From the NCBI GenBank assembly GCA_003697085.1, contig RFFU01000033.1:1-43383 (forward strand): 43,383 nt of DNA, written 5' to 3'. The notes below the pieces were generated by a model, which saw nothing but the letters and a program-made list of their open reading frames with translations, was not told the origin of the DNA and did no database searches. Of the stretch, positions 18,511 to 31,886 are shown in pieces (within the stretch, counting starts at the first letter, position 1; the number at the start of each line of letters is the position of its first letter). Both the position numbers and the translations under genes were made by a program. The DNA comes from Candidatus Hydrogenedentota bacterium (GTDB lineage Bacteria > UBA8481 > J006).

Positions 18511-19359
18511 ATGCGTTATTCGACGCCATTACTCCTCGTCGCTCTCGGACTTTCCACCGCTTATTTCGTCACGGGAGGGATCGAGGCATTTCTCCCGCAG
18601 CCGCAGATTCGTACGGCATCGGACGGAAGGGGGACGATCGAAACGTCAGCCCCGATTCGGGAAACGATTCCTGTTTCGGGAAAGGTCTTCGGAATAGCAT
18701 CCAAGGGAAAGGCGGTCGTGGCCGCTCCGGCACCTGCTCCGGCGCGGATCGTTACCACGGATCTGCGAAAGATCGCCTTGATCGGGCTCTTGGGAACCTC
18801 GGACAGCGCCTCGGCGGCGGCCATTCTCCGGGACGTGAAGGCCGAGTCGGTCGCCGTCGTCTATTTGGGGGACGCGGTCTTTGGAAGCGACGAGTATCTC
18901 TCCGCGGTCGAACCGACCTCGGTCGTCCTCGCGACGATCGGAGGAGACTGGTCCCGAAGGATCGAGTTGGGAGAGATCAGCGAACCCCCGCGTGTTTCTT
19001 CACCGGCCTCCGCCGGTCCGGCCGCGGGCAACGCGGAAGGGGGCATCGTCGTTTCGCGCGCCGAGATCAACGCTTCGGTCAAGAATCCGGAGGAGATCAT
19101 CGGAGAATCGAAGATCGTCCCGGAATTTCGCGGGGGAAAGATGGTCGGATTTCGGATCAGCGAGGTTTCCAGAAGTTCGATTGTGTATAAAATGGGAATC
19201 CGTTCCGGAGACGTGATCAAATCTGTCAACGGCCAGAGGCTGGATTCGCTCGAACGGGCGCCGCAGATTTGGAAGAAGATGAAGAACGTTTCACAAATTC
19301 GGATGGCGATAGAACGCAACGGGAAGGAAACGACGATGTCCTACGTGATTCGACCATGA
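18511..19359 (+). CDS. gspC: Type II secretion protein GspC
   Basis: 282 aa from ATG 18511. GspC links the inner-membrane platform to the secretin. An N-terminal membrane helix (about 4-27) is followed by a linker and a homology region (about 90-155: ALIGLLGTSDSASAAAILRD ... VYLGDAVFGS), which in known systems contacts the N0 domain of GspD. The C-terminal third is a PDZ domain (about 190-282) with VPEFRGGKMVGFRIS, SIVYKMGIRSGDVIKSVNGQ and a closing MAIERNGKETTMSY. Domain order and length fit GspC well. The stop overlaps the gspD start as ATGA. The operon promoter lies at 18476. Confidence 0.88.
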   Translation: MRYSTPLLLVALGLSTAYFVTGGIEAFLPQPQIRTASDGRGTIETSAPIRETIPVSGKVFGIASKGKAVVAAPAPAPARIVTTDLRKIALIGLLGTSDSASAAAILRDVKAESVAVVYLGDAVFGSDEYLSAVEPTSVVLATIGGDWSRRIELGEISEPPRVSSPASAGPAAGNAEGGIVVSRAEINASVKNPEEIIGESKIVPEFRGGKMVGFRISEVSRSSIVYKMGIRSGDVIKSVNGQRLDSLERAPQIWKKMKNVSQIRMAIERNGKETTMSYVIRP

Positions 19360-22061
19360 CTATTTTACGATCCCACGGTGCAAGAGGGTTCTCAGCGCGA
19401 GGGAGGGCGATGCTCTTTTTGGGACTCGCTCTCGTCTTCTTGGGCGGGCATTCCCCGGCAAGTTCTCTTCCCGGAGACACCGGTGTGGCGGGGAGGGGGA
19501 CTTCGGAGGAGAAGACGGCGGCGGAGCGAGCGCGGATGCTGGCGGCGAACGGGCATGTGGACGAGGCGTTGCAGTTACTGGAGGAGGTAAAGCGCGGTGC
19601 CGCGGTCGGCCGGCGGGACGAGGCGCGATTTCTCACGGGTTGGATTCTCTTTCGCTACAAGCGGGCTTATGAGAAGGCGATCGAGGAATTCGAACGGCTT
19701 TTGGTCGAGGCCCCCGATTCCCCGTACGGCGATGATGCGCTCTACTATGCGGGCTTCATCAATCAGTATTATTTGAAGGATCCGGCGGCGGCGCTTCAGT
19801 ATTATCGGCGCGGGTACGCCGCATTTCCGAACGGCGATTTCCGTTTCGCCCTTGCGGACAAGATTCGGGCTCTCGGCGGCGAGGTTCCGCCATCCGAGTC
19901 GAGGAAGGGGCGCGCGGTCGGAAGCGAAAGAAGGGGGGGCGGGAACCAGCGCTCGGACGAAACCGGCCGGAAGAGTTCGAAGGAAGATCGCCGGTTTCCG
20001 GAGGAGACGGAGATCGCCGAGACCGCGCCGTTGAGGCCTTCGGGAACATCGAAGATCACGATGCAGTTCGAGAAGGCACCGTTGAAATCCTTTATCGAGT
20101 GGATCGCACGCGTCACGGGGAAAAATTTCATTATCGACGACAATGTCAAGGGAGAGATCACGATCTATTCCGGCCGTCCCATTCCTCTCTCGGAGGTTTA
20201 TCGCGTCTTTCTCTCGATTCTCGAGGTGAAGGGGTATGCGGCGATCGAGTCGAACGGGATGACGAAGATCGTGAGTCGCCGCGCAGCCGTCGCCTCGGAG
20301 ATTCCGATTGTCATCGACGACGAGGCGGAATATCCGACCGACCGAATGATCACCCGTGTTTTTCAATTTCACACGATCTCGGCGGGCTCGGTTCAGAAAC
20401 TGATCCGCCCCTTTCTTTCCGGCACGGACCAAGTGGTGATCAATCCGGAATCGAACAGCCTGATCGTGACGGGGACGGGCAAGAACCTGCGGCGTCTAGC
20501 GAAATTGATCCGCCTGATTGCTGATTCCCGCCAGCCGCTCGTTCTTCGCTCCTACAGGATCGAATACGCGCGTGCGGCGGCGATTGCGACGAAGATGACG
20601 ACGCTGATTCCCGAGTTGACCTCGGCGCCCGGTGCGACACCGCTTCCGATGAAGTTCCTCGCCGATGAACGAACGAATACGCTTCACGTTCTCGCGGCTC
20701 CGTTCGTCCAAGAAAAGGTCCGGGACCTTCTGAAGGAATTGGACAGGAATCGGACGGCGGAGCGGATCGTCCGTGTCTTCCGGCTTGAATATGCGCTGGC
20801 GGAGGAAGTGGCCAAACAACTCAAACTCTTGCTCGGGTTGGAGAACCCGGCTCAGGCGGCGGATCAGGCCTCGGCGGACCAGACGGTTTTGATGGCGGAC
20901 CCCCGTCTCAATTCCGTTTCGGTGGCCACCTACGCGCCGCGCGTGATCGAGATGGTCGATTCCTATATTCAAACGGTGGATCGCCCGCCGAATCAGAGAA
21001 CGCGCCGCACGAGAATCCTTTCTCTCAAGAACGCTCAAGCGAAGGAACTCGCCGAGTTGCTGTTGAAGATTTTTCCGGCGGAAATGACACCGGCGGACGC
21101 CTTCGCGCTCGGTCTGGCGGACAAGGTTCGGATCTCTCCCGACCAGCGCACCAACTCGCTCATCATCACGGCCACGGATTCGGACTGGAAGCGGGTGAAG
21201 AAACTTATTCAGGACCTCGATGTCCGCAAGGCGCAGGTACTCGTGGACGCCGTGATCCTCGAAACGAGTCTGAACGAGGCGCGGGCGTTGGGGGTGAATA
21301 TCACCTCGTTGGAGGAACCGGCCTCCGGAAAGACGACGGTTGTCGGCGGATCGCTTCTGGTGCCGCCGGGGGAGTTGGCCGAAGGCGGGCTTTCGGTGTC
21401 GGCCGTGCGCAGTACGGCGATCGGTCCCGCGCTCCACGCGCTCCTTTCCTCCGCGCGCACGAACGTTCTCCAGATGCCGCAGATTCTCGCGCTGGACAAC
21501 GAGAAGGCCTCGATCTCCGTCGGGAATCTGACTCCGATCGTCTCCTCCCGCACGGTTTCGGGAGACAACGTGCAGATCAGCGGCTCCACGGGAATCTTTC
21601 AAAACGTCGAGTACCGGAACATCGGCTTGAACCTCGATCTGACGCCGCATATCGGAGACAAGGGGGATATCTTGTTGGAACTGAAGTTGGAGGTTCAGAA
21701 CACAACACAGCAGTCGGAGGTCGGATTGCCGGTCTTTACGAACCGCGCCATCGAATCGAAGATTCAGATTGCCAATGGAGATTACATCGTACTTGGTGGA
21801 TTGTTGCGGACTCAGGACGATGTCACGAAGAGGGAGACGCCCTGGTTGGCGAAGCTGCCGCTTTTGGGCCTCTTCTTCCGAAACACGCGCACTTCGGAAG
21901 GAAAGACGGTGCTTTTGATCTTCCTGCGTCCGCGCATTGTGACGAACACGAGTGCGGCGAAGGACGTAACGAATGAAGAACGCGAAAAGTACGAGGTGGA
22001 GTCCCGGATGCGGTTGCGCGCGCAAGACAGCGAAGTGGAGAAATGGGTTCCGCAGGATTGA
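19356..22061 (+). CDS. gspD: Type II secretion secretin GspD with N-terminal TPR region
   Basis: 901 aa from ATG 19356 (4-nt overlap with gspC). After a signal peptide (about 15-40) comes an unusual TPR-like region (about 50-165; DEALQLLEEVKRGAA, YEKAIEEFERLLVEAPDSPY, PAAALQYYRRGYAAFPNGDF) and a low-complexity linker. The N0 domain follows (ITMQFEKAPLKSFIEWIARV). I then count four N1-type modules, each closing with a variant of T-N-S-L-I-V: about 305-370, 372-450, 455-540 and 545-630. GspD normally has three (N1-N3). The secretin core (about 630-860) contains VLQMPQILALDNEKASISVG and a final beta region. Outer-membrane multimeric channel. No pilotin lipobox is seen; the C-terminal S-domain is short. 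Confidence 0.92.
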   Translation: MTILRSHGARGFSARGRAMLFLGLALVFLGGHSPASSLPGDTGVAGRGTSEEKTAAERARMLAANGHVDEALQLLEEVKRGAAVGRRDEARFLTGWILFRYKRAYEKAIEEFERLLVEAPDSPYGDDALYYAGFINQYYLKDPAAALQYYRRGYAAFPNGDFRFALADKIRALGGEVPPSESRKGRAVGSERRGGGNQRSDETGRKSSKEDRRFPEETEIAETAPLRPSGTSKITMQFEKAPLKSFIEWIARVTGKNFIIDDNVKGEITIYSGRPIPLSEVYRVFLSILEVKGYAAIESNGMTKIVSRRAAVASEIPIVIDDEAEYPTDRMITRVFQFHTISAGSVQKLIRPFLSGTDQVVINPESNSLIVTGTGKNLRRLAKLIRLIADSRQPLVLRSYRIEYARAAAIATKMTTLIPELTSAPGATPLPMKFLADERTNTLHVLAAPFVQEKVRDLLKELDRNRTAERIVRVFRLEYALAEEVAKQLKLLLGLENPAQAADQASADQTVLMADPRLNSVSVATYAPRVIEMVDSYIQTVDRPPNQRTRRTRILSLKNAQAKELAELLLKIFPAEMTPADAFALGLADKVRISPDQRTNSLIITATDSDWKRVKKLIQDLDVRKAQVLVDAVILETSLNEARALGVNITSLEEPASGKTTVVGGSLLVPPGELAEGGLSVSAVRSTAIGPALHALLSSARTNVLQMPQILALDNEKASISVGNLTPIVSSRTVSGDNVQISGSTGIFQNVEYRNIGLNLDLTPHIGDKGDILLELKLEVQNTTQQSEVGLPVFTNRAIESKIQIANGDYIVLGGLLRTQDDVTKRETPWLAKLPLLGLFFRNTRTSEGKTVLLIFLRPRIVTNTSAAKDVTNEEREKYEVESRMRLRAQDSEVEKWVPQD

Positions 22062-23638
22062 AGGTTGAAGAAGAGGCGCTGAGGGACGGTGTCGCCGCCT
22101 CCTCCTCAGGAGCCTCCGGCTCTTCGGCGGCCGCCTCCTCGTCTTCCGCCGCCGCTTCCTCGAACGCGCCCGTCCCCTTTTCCGCCTCGGCGGTGGAGCC
22201 GTCGCTTATGGTGAAGTTCCCGAAAGAGTTCCTGATGACAGCCGCGGTCGTTCCGGCTCGCGTGGAAGAGAACGAGATCGTCGTCTTCGGCGCTCCGGAA
22301 GGTTTGGGAGCGGCTCTCGAGATCGCCGATTATCTAGGAAAGGCCCTCCGTTTCCATCCGGCCAAGGAAAGCGAGATTCGGGAATTCGTCCGGGCCCGTT
22401 ACGACAAGGATTCGAGTCTCAGCGACGCGATCGCGGAGATGGAGCAGGAGACGGCGAATGTCGAAGCGCTTCAGGAACTTGCCGCCGACGCCCCCGTCGT
22501 GCGGCTCGTTGATCATCTTCTCGAAGAGGCGGTCACGAGGAACTCTTCCGATATTCACGTCATCCCGCGCGAACGGGATACCGTGGTTCGTTTTCGAATC
22601 GACGGAGTTCTTTCGGACTTCGACGTTCTCCCTCGGGAACTGCATGCGGGAGTCGTTTCGCGGATCAAGATTCTAGCGCGGCTCGATATCGCGCAGATTC
22701 GCCTTCCGCAGGACGGAAGGATCGCCCGCCGGGTCGCGGGCAGGGAGATCGACCTCCGAGTTTCGACGATTCCGACGCCTCAGGGGGAGCGTGTCGTGAT
22801 GCGGATTCTCGATCGGGCCACGGTGAAACTGGAGATGGAGGAGTTGGGAATGGCGCCCGAGGTTCAGCGTGTCTGGGAGACGCTGATCCGCCAGCCCCAC
22901 GGAATCCTCCTCGTGACGGGTCCTACGGGAAGCGGAAAAACGACGACACTCTACACCGCGTTGGCGGCGCTCAACGACGGGCGTGTCAACATTCTCACCG
23001 TGGAGGATCCCGTGGAGTATCTGATTGAGGGAACGGGGCAGATTCAAGTGAATCCGAAGATCAATCTCACCTTCGCCTCTGGTCTCCGGTCGATTCTCCG
23101 GCAGGATCCGGACGTGATTATGGTGGGGGAGATTCGGGATGGAGAGACGGCGCGCATCGCCGTTCAGGCTTCGCTTACCGGCCATCTTGTTCTCTCCACC
23201 CTGCACACAAACGATGCTCCATCCGCTTTGCCGCGCCTTCGGGATATGGGAATCGAATCGTACCTTTTGGCCTCGACCGTTCGGGCGGTTCTGGCGCAAC
23301 GGCTCGTTCGTCGTCTCTGTTCGGCCTGCCGGCGCCCGGCGAAACTCGATCCCGTTTCGGCGGCGGCTTTGGGCGGTGAAGCGGGAGTCGATGTCTTTCA
23401 GGCCGAGGGATGTCCTCGATGCGAGGGACGCGGTTTCCGGGGACGCTCGGGAATCTTCGAACTCGTTGTCGTCGACGAGCCGGTGCGGGAATTGATTTTG
23501 GCCAACGCTCCGGCGGGGGAAATCCGTCGCGCCGCGACGAAGTCCGGAATGGTGTCGATGCGCCGAGACGGACTCCGAAAAATACTGGCGGGAGAGACGA
23601 CGGCGGAGGAAGTGCTCCGGGCCGTGGAAACAGCCTGA
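22043..23638 (+). CDS. gspE: Type II secretion ATPase GspE
   Basis: 531 aa from ATG 22043, overlapping gspD by 19 nt. GspE powers pseudopilus assembly at the inner membrane. Residues 18-52 are a Ser/Ala run that probably acts as a flexible linker. Then come an N2E-like domain (55-125) and the ATPase core: Walker A GPTGSGKT (293-300), Asp box region VEDPVEYLIEG, Walker B DVIMVGEIRD and His box LVLSTLHTNDAPSAL. The C-terminal zinc finger is complete (CSAC ... CPRC). The N1E domain that binds GspL in proteobacteria is absent or replaced by the low-complexity segment. Confidence 0.94.
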   Translation: MGSAGLKVEEEALRDGVAASSSGASGSSAAASSSSAAASSNAPVPFSASAVEPSLMVKFPKEFLMTAAVVPARVEENEIVVFGAPEGLGAALEIADYLGKALRFHPAKESEIREFVRARYDKDSSLSDAIAEMEQETANVEALQELAADAPVVRLVDHLLEEAVTRNSSDIHVIPRERDTVVRFRIDGVLSDFDVLPRELHAGVVSRIKILARLDIAQIRLPQDGRIARRVAGREIDLRVSTIPTPQGERVVMRILDRATVKLEMEELGMAPEVQRVWETLIRQPHGILLVTGPTGSGKTTTLYTALAALNDGRVNILTVEDPVEYLIEGTGQIQVNPKINLTFASGLRSILRQDPDVIMVGEIRDGETARIAVQASLTGHLVLSTLHTNDAPSALPRLRDMGIESYLLASTVRAVLAQRLVRRLCSACRRPAKLDPVSAAALGGEAGVDVFQAEGCPRCEGRGFRGRSGIFELVVVDEPVRELILANAPAGEIRRAATKSGMVSMRRDGLRKILAGETTAEEVLRAVETA

Positions 23639-23651
23639 AGCGACGGCGAGG

Positions 23652-24863
23652 ATGGCTCCGTTCTTCCGCTACGAAGCGATCGAGAAGGGGGGAGGGCATC
23701 GCCGCGTCAAGGGGACTCTGGCGGCCGAAAACCCACGTCAAGTTCGGCTCCTTCTGCGAGAGAAGGGGCTTTCCGCCGTCAAGATAAAGCCGGCCCGGCT
23801 CCAGAGCGTTCGAAGCCTTGGATTGGCATGGGTCGGCGTTCTCGTCCGTCAACTCGGAACGCTTCTTCGAGCCGGATTTCCGATGGACCGCGCGTTGGGC
23901 GTTCTGGCGAGGTCGAGTTCTGAGGGTTCGATGCGCTTGACGGCCATGGCGCTGGAGGAGTCCGTGAAGAAGGGCAAGGCCTTGTCCGAGGCCTTCCTGC
24001 GCTTGGCGGGTTCGGGGGAACCGGACGCCACTCTCCGGGAAGTCGTCTCGGTCGTCCGGGCCGGCGAAGCGACAGGGAACCTCGGCGAAGTGCTTCTCGA
24101 TTATGCGATCCTGATCGAGTCACGCCTTCAATTCCGGCGAAAAATCCGCTCGGCGCTCTTTTACCCGATGGTCGTGACGGTCCTCGCCGTTTGCGTTGTC
24201 ACCTTCCTCTTCACCTATGTTCTTCCAACGATCCGAAAACTCTTCGCGGGGACGGGAATGGATCTGCCGTTGCCGACGAAGATTCTCTTCGGGACGGCGT
24301 CGGCGGCGCGGGACATCGGTCCGTGGATTCTGATCGCCGGCGTGATCCTTTTTCTCTTGCGGCACCGAATCTTTCCCGGGAACCGTCTTCGACGTTTGGG
24401 GGAAGGAATTCTCCTGCGGTTCCCCTATCTTCGGACGATTGTGAGAAAGGCCGCGATCGTACGGTGGGCACGGACACTGGCGCGTTTGCGGCGGAGCGGA
24501 GTCGAGATCGTGCAGGCGCTGGATCTCGCCGGCGCAGCGTCCGCGATCCTGGCGATCGAGGAGGCGACGCGGAACGTACGCCGAAAGGTCACAGGCGGAA
24601 GAAGTCTCACCGCCGCGATGAGGGAAGAACCGATCTTTCCTCCGGAGATGATCGAAGCGGTGGCGGTGGGGGAGGAGTCGGACGAACTGGAGAACATCCT
24701 CGAGGAGATGGGGCGGGCGTGGGAAGAGGAGGTGAGCACGGCGGCGGACCGTCTTGCGGAGATTCTCGAACCGGCGGTACTGGTGGTAATGGGAATCGTC
24801 GTCGGCGGGATCGTTCTGGCGGTCCTTTTGCCGATCTTCGAGATGAACGCGTCGATCGGATGA
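23652..24863 (+). CDS. gspF: Type II secretion inner-membrane protein GspF
   Basis: 403 aa from ATG 23652, 13 nt after gspE; GGCGAGG directly precedes it. GspF is the polytopic platform protein that GspE engages. Two homologous cytoplasmic T2SSF domains are visible (about 65-185 with RQLGTLLRAGFPMDRALGVL, and about 270-390 with WARTLARLRRSGVEIVQALD). Three membrane helices follow the usual plan (PMVVTVLAVCVVTFLFTYVL, WILIAGVILFLL, VLVVMGIVVGGIVLAVLLPI). The N-terminal FFRYEAIEKGG strand is typical. The operon ends here: no pseudopilin (gspG-K) or gspL/M gene follows, and the next genes are on the other strand. Confidence 0.93.
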   Translation: MAPFFRYEAIEKGGGHRRVKGTLAAENPRQVRLLLREKGLSAVKIKPARLQSVRSLGLAWVGVLVRQLGTLLRAGFPMDRALGVLARSSSEGSMRLTAMALEESVKKGKALSEAFLRLAGSGEPDATLREVVSVVRAGEATGNLGEVLLDYAILIESRLQFRRKIRSALFYPMVVTVLAVCVVTFLFTYVLPTIRKLFAGTGMDLPLPTKILFGTASAARDIGPWILIAGVILFLLRHRIFPGNRLRRLGEGILLRFPYLRTIVRKAAIVRWARTLARLRRSGVEIVQALDLAGAASAILAIEEATRNVRRKVTGGRSLTAAMREEPIFPPEMIEAVAVGEESDELENILEEMGRAWEEEVSTAADRLAEILEPAVLVVMGIVVGGIVLAVLLPIFEMNASIG

Positions 24864-26156: not shown

Positions 26157-27539
26157 CACGGCGCAAGTTTCCGAAGGTCCAAAGCATTCGCGGCGGGGAA
26201 AGGAGCCGCGCGGGGGCTCCAGCCGGACATTCTCGTCGTCGGCGGCGGGATCGTCGGAACCTCGGTGGCGCTCGATGCCGCGGGCCGGGGATACAGCGTC
26301 GTTCTTCTGGAGAAGAAGGACATCGGCGCCGGAACGACTTCTCGAACCTCGCGGATGGCTCACGGCGGCCTTCGGTATTTGGAATACGGAGCCTTTGGGT
26401 TGGTTCGGGAGAGTTTGCGGGAACGGGACATTCTCTGCCATCGGGCGCCGGACCTGGTTCGGAAAAGAGACTTCTTTCTTCCGGATGCGGCGCACGGCCG
26501 CTTACCGATTCTCATCGGAACGGGGCTTTTTCTTTACGATCTTCTGGCCCTCTCCCGAGATTCTCATCGCGCGAAGAACGGTTTTTTCTATCGCGACGCG
26601 ATCTGCGTTCCCGAGCCGCTGGCGGCAAGAACGGCTGGAGCCGCGATCAGGCACGGGGCCGAGATTCGACTCCGCGAAGGGGTTGTTCGAATCGAAACGA
26701 ACGGCGACGTGGTATCGAGGAGCGGGGAACGCTTTCGCCCGCGGGTCATCGTGCTTGCGTTGGGGCCTTGGGTCGATCGATTCCTGGAAGGAACAGGGCT
26801 CCCCTTTCCGAAACCGCTTTTGAATCCGAGTCGGGGGGCGCATCTCTTCTTCCGAAAGAAGATCGATAGGCCCGTGTTGCTTCAAGCGAAACGGGACGGG
26901 CGCGTCTTCTTCGGAGTTCCGTGCCTCGGAGGAACGCTTGTAGGGACGACGGATATCGAGGACCGTTCCGATCCGGACAGGGTTTTTCCGACGGAGGAGG
27001 AGAAGGATTACCTCTGGACGGAATGGAGGCATCGGTTTCCGGAGTGGGAGGAACGGCCGTTCGGAGCGTGGGCCGGTCTCCGGCCGCTTGTCAACGAGGG
27101 AAAGGACGTCTCGGCGCGGACACGGGAGGAGCGCATCGTGATTCATCCGCGAGTCGAAAATCTCGTTGTGATCGTCGGGGGGAAATTGACGACGGCCCGA
27201 GCCATCGCCGAAAAAACCCTGCGCCTCCTCGAAAGAAGGTATTTTAAAAGACGGAGCGCGGATTGGACGCGGGAAGAACGGTTGACGATCGAGGATGCCA
27301 GACGTCTGCCGCATCGGGGGATCGCCGATATTCTTCTGCGGCGCACCGCCGTGGGCTTTTATGACGATCCGGAGAAGGAGAGGGAAACCCTGAGGGAATG
27401 GGGGATTTCAGTCGAAGGACAGGCGGAGTTGTTGGAAAGGGAATATCATTCTTATTTCGAGGAACGATATCGCGATTTTGGAATTCCGCCGCGTAAAAAC
27501 AGCGGTTTCTTCCCAGAAAAAATGATGCGCAATGACTGA
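26151..27539 (+). CDS. FAD-dependent glycerol-3-phosphate dehydrogenase (GlpD/GlpA type), start unclear
   Basis: About 462 aa. It oxidises glycerol-3-phosphate to dihydroxyacetone phosphate, passing electrons to quinone at the membrane. The Rossmann motif VVGGGIVGTSVALDAAGRG is followed by GAGTTSRTSRMAHGGLRYLE (GlpD-like), and later by NPSRGAHLFF, LVGTTDIEDRSDPDR and VGGKLTTARAIAEK. The 5' end is odd: between 26139 and the Rossmann motif there is no ATG, GTG or TTG in any frame. I place the left boundary at the ATA codon 26151 only as a marker; ATT 26226 is another candidate. The nearest in-frame usual start, TTG 25737, lies deep inside the opposite gene and would add a charged extension. It overlaps queG by 8 nt. 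The C-terminal domain is shorter than in GlpD. Confidence 0.8.
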   Translation: MSHGASFRRSKAFAAGKGAARGLQPDILVVGGGIVGTSVALDAAGRGYSVVLLEKKDIGAGTTSRTSRMAHGGLRYLEYGAFGLVRESLRERDILCHRAPDLVRKRDFFLPDAAHGRLPILIGTGLFLYDLLALSRDSHRAKNGFFYRDAICVPEPLAARTAGAAIRHGAEIRLREGVVRIETNGDVVSRSGERFRPRVIVLALGPWVDRFLEGTGLPFPKPLLNPSRGAHLFFRKKIDRPVLLQAKRDGRVFFGVPCLGGTLVGTTDIEDRSDPDRVFPTEEEKDYLWTEWRHRFPEWEERPFGAWAGLRPLVNEGKDVSARTREERIVIHPRVENLVVIVGGKLTTARAIAEKTLRLLERRYFKRRSADWTREERLTIEDARRLPHRGIADILLRRTAVGFYDDPEKERETLREWGISVEGQAELLEREYHSYFEERYRDFGIPPRKNSGFFPEKMMRND

Positions 27540-28392
27540 CGCGATACCCCTTCCGGGACGGGCGCGGGTCTTGGATGTGATTCCGGTGAAGAGGCGGCGG
27601 AGAAGGTGGAGCGGGAGCAGCGGAAAGGCGGCGGATATTCGGGAAAGACTCGAGGAACTCGCATTTCGGAACGGCTTCAGCGATTTGGGCGTGGTCGCCC
27701 CGGAGATTCCTCGAGAGGACCGGGAAAGATTTCGAAGATGGTTGGCGCAAGGTCGTCACGGAGAAATGGAGTATATGGCACGGAGAGTGGAACATCGTCT
27801 GGAGTTCGAGGATTGGGTCAAAAGCCTTATCGTATTGACCCGCCCCTATCCTCCTCTTCGTTTTCCAAAAGGGAAAAAACGGTACGCCGCTTACGCGGAA
27901 GGAGAGGACTATCATAAAACAATCCGGAGGGCCTTGTTGCCTCTGGCGGAGGAGATTCGAGCGGCGGGAGGCCGAGCGCGGCGGTTCGTCGATACGAGCA
28001 GCGTTTTGGAACGGAGTCTGGCCGCCCGCGCGGGGTTGGGATTTATCGGACGGAGCACGATGCTTCTCTCACGGACCCACGGCCCCTACGTCTTCCTTTG
28101 CGGCATCAAGACGGATCTCGTTCTGCCGCCTGACAGTCCGGGAACGGGGACGTGCGGAGAGTGCCGGCGTTGTATCGAAACCTGCCCCGGAAATGCGCTC
28201 GATGAGGAGGGCCTGGATTCCCGCAAGTGCGTCTCCTACCTCACGATCGAACTGAAACGTCCGCGAACGCTGGAGGAAGAGCGGCTGGTGGGTGAATGGG
28301 AATTCGGATGTGATGTCTGCATCGAGGTCTGTCCCTACGCAAAATTCGCCCTTCCACCGGTGGTTCCCCGGCGTCGCGGAGTGGAACGGTGA
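27532..28392 (+). CDS. queG: Epoxyqueuosine reductase QueG, short form
   Basis: 286 aa from ATG 27532. QueG uses cobalamin and two [4Fe-4S] clusters to reduce epoxyqueuosine to queuosine in tRNA, the last step of that modification. The core shows RFVDTSSVLERSLAARAGLG with the catalytic Asp, then FIGRSTMLLS, and both ferredoxin-like motifs: CGECRRCIETCPGNAL and CDVCIEVCPY. The protein stops about 20 residues after the second cluster, whereas many QueG continue for another 60-100 residues with HEAT-like helices for tRNA contact. About 35 basic residues precede the core (PVKRRRRRWSGSSGK), which may be a late extension or a mis-set start. Coupled to the dehydrogenase gene by overlap. Confidence 0.9.
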   Translation: MTDAIPLPGRARVLDVIPVKRRRRRWSGSSGKAADIRERLEELAFRNGFSDLGVVAPEIPREDRERFRRWLAQGRHGEMEYMARRVEHRLEFEDWVKSLIVLTRPYPPLRFPKGKKRYAAYAEGEDYHKTIRRALLPLAEEIRAAGGRARRFVDTSSVLERSLAARAGLGFIGRSTMLLSRTHGPYVFLCGIKTDLVLPPDSPGTGTCGECRRCIETCPGNALDEEGLDSRKCVSYLTIELKRPRTLEEERLVGEWEFGCDVCIEVCPYAKFALPPVVPRRRGVER

Positions 28393-28444: not shown

Positions 28445-28510
28445 CGCAGTCGAGTTTCTATCGGAACAGAAGATTCGAGGGAAACAAAAATACTTTGGGA
28501 GGTTGGAACG

Positions 28511-28765
28511 ATGGCGGATGTCAGTGCCAGTGCGGCGAAGGAACACGTGTTGAAAGGGAGCGGGGACGTGGGGAGAATCAGCAAGGATGCGGTTCAAGTG
28601 GCTCGGGAATTGGCTCAGGCGTATCTTGCGGATTTGGGGCGCGGAGCGGCGGAGGAGGCGAAGAAGGCCCGCCGGAAGACGATTATGCCCGATGATCTCC
28701 GGGCCGCGGCTCGGGCTCTGGCTCCTTCCCGTCCAGAAACTCCCGGTGGACTCGGCACCTTCTGA
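28511..28765 (+). CDS. Bacterial histone-fold DNA-binding protein
   Basis: 84 aa from ATG 28511 with GGGAGG upstream. It matches archaeal histones such as HMfB without a gap over 49 residues. These run from RISKDA (22-27; HMfB RVSDDA) through a long helix to RKTI (55-58; identical) and PDDLRAAARAL (60-70; HMfB AEDIELAVRRF). The RKT loop residues that touch DNA and the Asp (62) of the intramolecular Arg-Asp pair are kept. A short N-terminal helix (about 5-14) and a 14-residue Pro/Gly-rich tail complete it. Histone folds are rare in bacteria but known, for example from Bdellovibrio and Leptospira. A dimeric nucleoid protein is expected. It is single-gene, with its own promoter, between queG and mqnD. 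Confidence 0.85.
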   Translation: MADVSASAAKEHVLKGSGDVGRISKDAVQVARELAQAYLADLGRGAAEEAKKARRKTIMPDDLRAAARALAPSRPETPGGLGTF

Positions 28766-28835: not shown

Positions 28836-29660
28836 GTGAAGACGTACACGATCGGCCATAGTCCGGATCCCGACGACGCTTTTATGTTTTACGCCTTGAC
28901 TCATGGGAAGATCGAGACGGGAAACATTCGGTTCCGCGAACACCTCGAGGGAATCGAAGCGCTCAACGAGCGAGCCGAACGGAAGGAGTTCGAGATCACC
29001 GCGGTCTCCGTCCACCAGCTCTACTACATCCACGATTCCTATCGGCTTATGAATGTCGGAGCGTCGATGGGAGACGGGTATGGGCCGCTCGTGGTCGGGC
29101 GGAACGGAACCTATCTTCCGGGAAGGCGGGTCGCCCTTCCCGGAAGACGGACGACAGCGGCACTGCTCTTCCAACTTCGGTTCGGCACCGAGGCGGAGTT
29201 CGCTGTCTATCCCTTCGACGACGTTATGCGCGCGGTGCGGGAGGAGGAATGCGATTACGGCGTGGTGATACACGAGGGACAGTTGTCGTACCGTGAGGAA
29301 GGAATGATCGCGGTGGAGGACCTGGGACGATGGTTCACGGAGGAAACGGGCCTTCCGACTCCGCTGGGAGTCAACGTGGTCCGAAGGGATCTTTCCGAAT
29401 CCGAGGAAATGGATCGTTTGCTGCGAACCTCGATCGCGTGGGCCTTCGAAAATGAAGAGGAAGCACTTGACTATGCCCTTCAATATGCACGGGGTCTCGA
29501 AAAGGATTCGGTCCGCAAGTTCGTTCGGATGTATGTCAACGATCTGACGATCGATCTAGGCGAGCGTGGCCGGAACGGCGTTCGAGAATTGATCCGTCGT
29601 GGGATTGATCGGGGGTTCTTGAGAGGAACGATCGCGACGGCCGACGAAATTTTCCTCTGA
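28836..29660 (+). CDS. mqnD: 1,4-dihydroxy-6-naphthoate synthase (futalosine menaquinone pathway)
   Basis: 274 aa from GTG 28836. MqnD converts cyclic dehypoxanthinyl futalosine to 1,4-dihydroxy-6-naphthoate, a late step in the futalosine route to menaquinone. The N-terminus IGHSPDPDDAFMFYALTHGK is diagnostic, and the fold is that of a periplasmic-binding-protein-like enzyme: EITAVSVHQLYYI, then GYGPLVVGRN, CDYGVVIHEGQL and TGLPTPLGVNVVRRDL. Length fits the family. mqnA, mqnB and mqnC are not in the window. It ends 1 nt before the stop of the opposing zinc-ribbon gene, with no room for a hairpin terminator. Confidence 0.9.
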   Translation: MKTYTIGHSPDPDDAFMFYALTHGKIETGNIRFREHLEGIEALNERAERKEFEITAVSVHQLYYIHDSYRLMNVGASMGDGYGPLVVGRNGTYLPGRRVALPGRRTTAALLFQLRFGTEAEFAVYPFDDVMRAVREEECDYGVVIHEGQLSYREEGMIAVEDLGRWFTEETGLPTPLGVNVVRRDLSESEEMDRLLRTSIAWAFENEEEALDYALQYARGLEKDSVRKFVRMYVNDLTIDLGERGRNGVRELIRRGIDRGFLRGTIATADEIFL

Positions 29661-31473: not shown

Positions 31474-31546
31474 GGGCCCGTAGCTCAGTGGTTAGAGCGG
31501 CCGACTCATAATCGGTTGGTCGCAGGTTCGAATCCTGCCGGGCCCA
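31474..31546 (+). tRNA. tRNA with CAU anticodon (Ile2 or elongator Met)
   Basis: 73 nt with a complete cloverleaf. The acceptor arm is GGGCCCG/CGGGCCC with discriminator A. The anticodon stem is GCCGA/TCGGT around the loop CTCATAA (anticodon 31507-31509), and the T arm is GCAGG-TTCGAAT-CCTGC. CCA is not encoded. The anticodon CAU serves elongator Met, or Ile2 after lysidine modification. The anticodon-arm and extra-loop sequence (GACTCATAATCG, then TTGGTCGC) is closer to Ile2 of E. coli than to its elongator Met, but I cannot decide. It is not an initiator, since that type lacks a pair at the acceptor end and has GGG/CCC in the anticodon stem. Confidence 0.9.
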
Positions 31547-31814: not shown

Positions 31815-31886
31815 GCCCACGTAGCTCAGCGGTAGAGCAGCTCATTCGTAATGAGCAGGTCGTTGGTTCGAATCCGACCGTGGGCT
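31815..31886 (+). tRNA. tRNA-Thr (CGT)
   Basis: 72 nt with a full cloverleaf. The acceptor arm is GCCCACG/CGTGGGC with discriminator U, and the anticodon stem is GCTCA/TGAGC around the loop TTCGTAA (anticodon CGT, 31847-31849). The T arm is GTTGG-TTCGAAT-CCGAC. CCA is not encoded. A run of six T residues begins at the discriminator, so the T arm and acceptor strand probably serve as the terminator. Confidence 0.93.

Follow-up and report, generated by a model that had tools for sequence, protein, structure and literature searches.

A histone of full nucleosomal length encoded in the genome of a diderm bacterium

The window analysed here, a stretch of 43,383 nucleotides that makes up the entire contig G000:C63, comes from a diderm bacterium and encodes a small histone, P0001, of the full-length nucleosomal (HMf-like) kind, unlike the alpha3, short-alpha2 kind to which Bd0055 belongs. 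By the features tested, P0001 is not an alpha3, FtF, DUF1931 or IHF histone. In published surveys, prokaryotic histones are mainly either nucleosomal histones, which are reported from archaea alone, or alpha3 histones (PMC11390915, PMC12701072). P0001 is a full-length nucleosomal-type histone in a bacterium, a type published only from archaea; because the supplementary tables fall outside this comparison, a member of the P0001 family may be listed in the surveys unremarked. As to function, we lean slightly towards a full-length HMf-like, single-gene histone that bends DNA as dimers and is one among several architectural proteins.

The gene, its neighbours and the features of its product are listed in Table 1. 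The original prediction had described a histone-fold protein in a bacterial genome, with a normal ribosome site, an apparent promoter of its own and an LPS-bearing host. The protein and the ribosome site are as described. The promoter was not recovered: in a search that covered sigma-70-like sites, none was found upstream of the gene and the sole such site lies within it. The nature of the host is borne out by MurJ, a lipid A acyltransferase, a heptosyltransferase and GspD/E/F on the contig, which also carries Lnt, QueG and the menaquinone gene. The GC3 of the P0001 gene (0.647) is similar to that of neighbouring genes. Archaeal DNA contamination as the source of P0001 was rejected, since the contig is bacterial, the composition is native and the gene is present in both genomes of the phylum. 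Elsewhere in the window, GspD, GspE and GspF form a type II secretion or type IV pilus-like run (19269-24863, +), and two tRNA genes (31474-31546 and 31815-31886, both +) are separated by ~270 nt.

Table 1. Positions in the window of the histone gene, its neighbours and the parts of its product.
Feature	Position	Strand	Basis or remark
Upstream neighbour, QueG-like epoxyqueuosine reductase	27532-28392	+	118 nt gap to histone gene; Pfam
Shine-Dalgarno-like GGGAGG	28497-28502	+	8 nt 5' of ATG; read from sequence
CDS of 84-aa histone P0001	28511-28765	+	ATG start; PF00808 match and orthologues in G001, G145/L016, G175/L020
alpha1, residues 6-17	28526-28561	+	AlphaFold2 model
R22, counterpart of HMfB sprocket R19	28574-28576	+	Invariant across four family members
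alpha2, full length, residues 25-52 (28 residues)	28583-28666	+	AlphaFold2; L1-L2 spacing 33 vs 29 in alpha3 histones
L2 loop motif RKTIMPDD, R55-D62, RxTxxxxD	28673-28696	+	Sequence
alpha3, full length, residues 60-70 (11 residues)	28688-28720	+	AlphaFold2; alpha3 histones: 3-4
C-terminal Pro/Gly-rich tail, predicted disordered, unconserved	28721-28762	+	pLDDT <50 for residues 75-84
Downstream neighbour, VitK2_biosynth (MqnA/MqnD-type) menaquinone biosynthesis protein	28836-29660	+	70 nt gap; Pfam

P0001 was matched by PF00808 (CBFD_NFYB_HMF; E 4.9e-9, 36.8 bits against a curated cut-off of 21.4) and by PF00125 (core histone; 2e-8), and no other match in G000 (3.2 Mb) exceeds the PF00808 cut-off. 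Archaeal histones came first when P0001 was searched against the PDB with phmmer. The AlphaFold2 model used throughout was built from a 17-row homologue alignment and has a pLDDT of 86.1 overall and >90 at 64 residues; an earlier run with 3 sequences gave a pLDDT of 67.9, and the fold search made with that model was uninformative. Searched with Foldseek, the 17-row model found archaeal HPhA first (1ku5; probability 1.00, rmsd 1.4 over 66 columns). The top VIA-align match was HMfB as crystallised in a hypernucleosome (5t5k; Z 9.6, rmsd 1.7 Å, 67/67 aligned), with which chains of HMfA, H3 and CENP-S/CENP-X, no more than 1 Z unit behind, are to be regarded as tied. The profile score above the cut-off and the resemblance of the model to HMfB and HPhA together point to a single histone fold.

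The likeness to HMfB that had been proposed from the sequence is thus upheld by the single-chain structure prediction, and it extends to the identical RKTI and the Arg-Asp pair (R55-D62). The proposal of an alignment to HMfB free of gaps over the whole fold was nearly, not strictly, right: it holds from R22 onward, and phmmer adds one residue between alpha1 and R22. The 14-residue Pro/Gly tail, to which importance had been attached, is indeed present. It is disordered in the model, longer and acidic in the G001 orthologue and lacking in L016 and L020; as it is not conserved, the idea was dropped. Histone H3 has the same TIMPxD(I/L) motif following L2 and is ~27% identical to P0001 over the fold, a likeness that is probably convergent; P0001 differs in having no N-terminal helix or tail and in the homodimer expected of it.

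The assignment to the nucleosomal kind is carried by the lengths of the helices. Nucleosomal histones have an alpha3 of ~10 residues, while in alpha3 histones this helix has 3-4 residues and alpha2 is 4-5 residues shorter, according to PMC11390915. HBb, HLp and other single-fold histones of bacteria are placed among the alpha3 histones in PMC11390915, PMC12701072 and PMC10627809, and the last describes the sprocket Arg as missing from the bacterial histones of its survey. The spacing between the L1 anchor residue and the L2 Arg is 33 residues in P0001, in all archaeal nucleosomal references and in eukaryotic H3/H4, compared with 29 in those FtF and bacterial-dimer references that allowed an automatic reading of the anchor. 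Moreover, every alpha3 histone has a 4-residue gap in alpha2 in the alignment and P0001 has none. Neither the truncated alpha3 nor the short alpha2 that mark alpha3 histones (FtF, bacterial dimer, ZZ, phage) is seen in P0001, and a DUF1931 pseudodimer, with two folds per chain, does not fit a protein with one fold that scores 15 bits against PF09123 (cut-off 21.8).

P0001 thus resembles archaeal nucleosomal histones (HMfB, HMfA, HPhA, Asgard HHoB) in its spacing and full-length alpha3, in the sprocket Arg, the RKT, the RxTxxxxD motif (R55, T57, D62) and the loop Gly, and these give its best structural and profile matches. It differs from them in its bacterial host, in an additional residue ahead of the sprocket Arg, in its disordered tail and in the residues discussed below. 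With HBb/Bd0055 it has in common a single fold, a bacterial host, the absence of H49 and a probably dimeric state, whereas Bd0055 and its kind have an alpha2 four residues shorter, a one-turn alpha3 and no sprocket Arg (PMC10627809). Of the two comparisons initially suggested, that with HMfB was apt and that with Bd0055 was to the wrong kind; the alpha3 histone of this genome, of FtF type, sits elsewhere.

We infer the homodimeric state of P0001, its binding and bending of DNA and its abundance. P0001 would form a handshake homodimer, which would bind DNA without sequence preference through two L1-L2 sites (R22 and R55-K56-T57) and the alpha1 face, each dimer covering perhaps ~30 bp along a curved DNA path. 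Kept in P0001 are R22, R55-K56-T57, D62, the loop G18 and hydrophobic residues at core positions. Against the favoured reading, H12 or L12 stands where HMfB has its DNA-anchoring R10. The contacts that hold HMfB tetramers are largely replaced (H49 by K52, L46 by E49 and L62 by A65), so that of the hypernucleosome contact set L46, H49, D59 and L62 (PMC6136690) only D59 is kept, as D62. The stacking-loop glycine G16 of the same source is found as G18, provided that the extra residue falls after G18. Because H49, L46 and L62 are replaced, HMf-style wrapping is not predicted and bending by dimers is favoured; most likely, P0001 dimers bend and decorate DNA rather than building stable hypernucleosomes.

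Wrapping of DNA as tetramers or hypernucleosomes like those of HMfB, with K52-D62 and G18 replacing or keeping the archaeal contacts, is in our judgement unlikely. Judging from the residues, K52-D62 could stand in for the H49-D59 contact, which would make tetramers possible in this species. Both alpha2 and alpha3 are of full length, the G16 equivalent is invariant in 4/4 family members and the D59 equivalent is present in 3/4, the sprocket Arg is kept, and the top structural match is itself from a hypernucleosome. Against this stand the K, E and A at the positions of H49, L46 and L62, and the His at the D59 position in G001. Histones without H49 are described as forming no stable tetramers and not wrapping DNA (PMC10627809, PMC6136690). 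PMC10627809 also reports that Bd0055 wraps DNA once given three archaeal interface residues, and that lengthening its alpha2 by four residues still gives no wrapping.

Dimeric bending by P0001 would be shared work. A second histone of G000 is encoded at G000:C64:7563-7772 (-) (locus L003, 1504-1713; sequence MAKKAAKKKAAKKGVQVILASRVKEV...RAKANGRQTIRPQDI). It has a spacing of 29, no alpha3 after the motif, a Lys-rich N-terminal tail and, like HLp, the FtF interface pattern RxxxNxRxT, a strict pattern that HTkC itself fails to match. Its orthologue in G001 (L053) is 69% identical, and two HU/IHF-family genes are present in each of G000 and G001. Histones of two types, FtF-type and nucleosomal-length, are therefore retained in this phylum alongside HU/IHF proteins, and P0001 may share an architectural role with the FtF histone and the two HU/IHF proteins of its genome. 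FtF histones (HLp, HTkC) are, like P0001, single-domain DNA-binding histones (in P0001 the binding is presumed) that occur also in bacteria, but they have a short alpha2, a truncated alpha3 and a conserved tetramer Arg and Asn.

The same complement can be turned around: with two HU/IHF genes and an FtF histone already in the genome, P0001 might be a special-purpose DNA-binding regulator or protein partner, like NF-Y or TAF, and not a general architectural protein. The G000 and G001 orthologues of P0001 have diverged (55% identity, against 69% for the FtF histone), and in the G001 protein, which is acidic overall, the Arg-Asp clamp is gone (K55, H62). We nevertheless hold this to be quite improbable, as P0001 is a stand-alone domain with a non-specific DNA-contact motif and no conserved neighbour is tied to its gene. 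The loss of the clamp and the acidity in G001 do mean that not every family member need bind DNA strongly, and the combination of K52 with H62 there shows that the family is not uniform.

The placement of P0001 among histones was examined further with class profiles built from 7 archaeal nucleosomal and 7 alpha3 histones. The scores, indicative because the archaeal reference set is small, were 31.7 (nucleosomal) and 14.4 bits (alpha3) for P0001 and, among its three orthologues, 19.7 and 5.7 for L004, 44.4 and 17.0 for L016, and 43.9 and 18.4 for L020; the second histone of G000 shows the reverse preference (18.2 and 52.9). In the tree, the members of the P0001 family group in a clade of their own (98/96) that is separate from the alpha3 clade (94/98). 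At 71 alignment columns, too few for AU tests to settle the deeper position of the family, a sister relationship to alpha3 histones was not rejected (p = 0.38). This result, together with the bacterial host, is what can be said for P0001 being a bacterial alpha3 histone (bacterial-dimer/FtF) that lengthened its own alpha2 and alpha3 and has no particular nucleosomal kinship. We consider that very improbable, given an alpha2 four residues longer that matches archaeal histones without gaps, a lead of 14-27 bits for the nucleosomal profile in 4/4 family members, the absence of the FtF signature RxxxNxRxT and the presence of the sprocket Arg.

Hardly any weight can be given to P0001 being an IHF histone (Schwab 2024): that bacterial group has the sprocket Arg, RxTxxxxD and an R24-R57 spacing of 33 and occurs in Wallbacteria (PMC11390915), and candidates for it (L010, L021-L026) are found in the phylum of G145, yet its two-helix C-terminal domain and adjoining IHF-like gene (same source) have no counterpart in the helix-free tail of P0001 or in the loci scanned, where the P0001 gene lies between QueG and a menaquinone gene, and the candidates form a separate branch. 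Since IHF histones share the 33-residue spacing, a full-length alpha2 in bacteria has precedent. Six of the candidate loci (L010, L021, L022, L023, L025 and L026) encode ~108-aa histones that resemble published IHF histones, with an alpha2 of full length and a C-terminal extension that is conserved. Up to three such paralogues occur in G184, and an HU/IHF gene directly follows one in G172.

Orthologues of P0001, for which the original prediction had pointed to related genomes, were found in G001 and as L016 and L020. G001 belongs to the same order and another family, so that the gene is present in 2/2 genomes searched from this barely sampled phylum. L016 (G145; 43% identity) comes from a MAG deposited as Candidatus Wallbacteria and was found in the scan of named-genome contigs, in which P0001 as a single query returned 0 relatives and a two-row alignment query returned 1. 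A search of that MAG's phylum yielded L020 (G175; 41% identity), the family being present in 2/40 genomes there. L016 and L020 are a close pair under purifying selection (dN 0.067, dS 0.73). Among 386 bacterial genomes, most of them from other phyla, the family profile gave no strong match beyond G000 and G001 except contaminant eukaryotic H3, and searches of viral contigs, phages and plasmids yielded no relatives. The neighbours of the gene differ among G000, G001 and G145, with no conserved synteny. By RpoB similarity (a single gene, in a BLAST-like ranking without a tree), the phyla nearest to G000 are those of G007, G135 and G086, not G119, and a close relationship between the two phyla that carry the histone is thus unsupported. 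As the two are not adjacent by RpoB, the distribution is likely to reflect transfer between phyla or patchy loss.

Taken more broadly, the case is about evenly balanced for a bacterial lineage of nucleosomal-length histones that was kept across the phylum beside an FtF histone and HU, and that has the archaeal DNA-contact geometry and has lost the tetramer weld. If so, a single bacterial cell works with architectural proteins of three kinds, and alpha2 length and the sprocket Arg are naturally separated from His49-dependent wrapping. The P0001 family would then be a natural test of the features needed to bend or wrap DNA. Two histone classes and HU in one bacterium raise the question of a division of labour, and a small bacterial clade with full-length histones bears on histone origin, whether by transfer from archaea or through an older bacterial presence.

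Several other histone genes were encountered. An archaeal-like histone in a bacterial bin (L030, G253:C165) was left out as evidence for bacterial histones, its archaeal look and 4-kb contig making archaeal contamination probable. A cluster of eukaryotic-type core histones on a 5.6-kb contig (L005, L013, L014 and L015, G135:C69) is almost certainly eukaryotic contamination. Short-alpha2 histones of the bacterial-dimer/FtF kind were found in representatives of four other bacterial phyla (L006, L008, L009 and L012), L009 having the FtF pattern. A bacterium from another phylum encodes a more canonical HMf-like histone (L035 1438-1704 (-), equivalent to G321:C77:15698-15964), a type present in 1/14 genomes of that phylum. 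It keeps the equivalents of R10, K13, R19, H49, D59 and L62 and scores 59.0 bits with the nucleosomal profile against 10.4, and its contig, with a sigma-54 response regulator and HerA-like and replication-relaxation genes, is possibly a mobile element.
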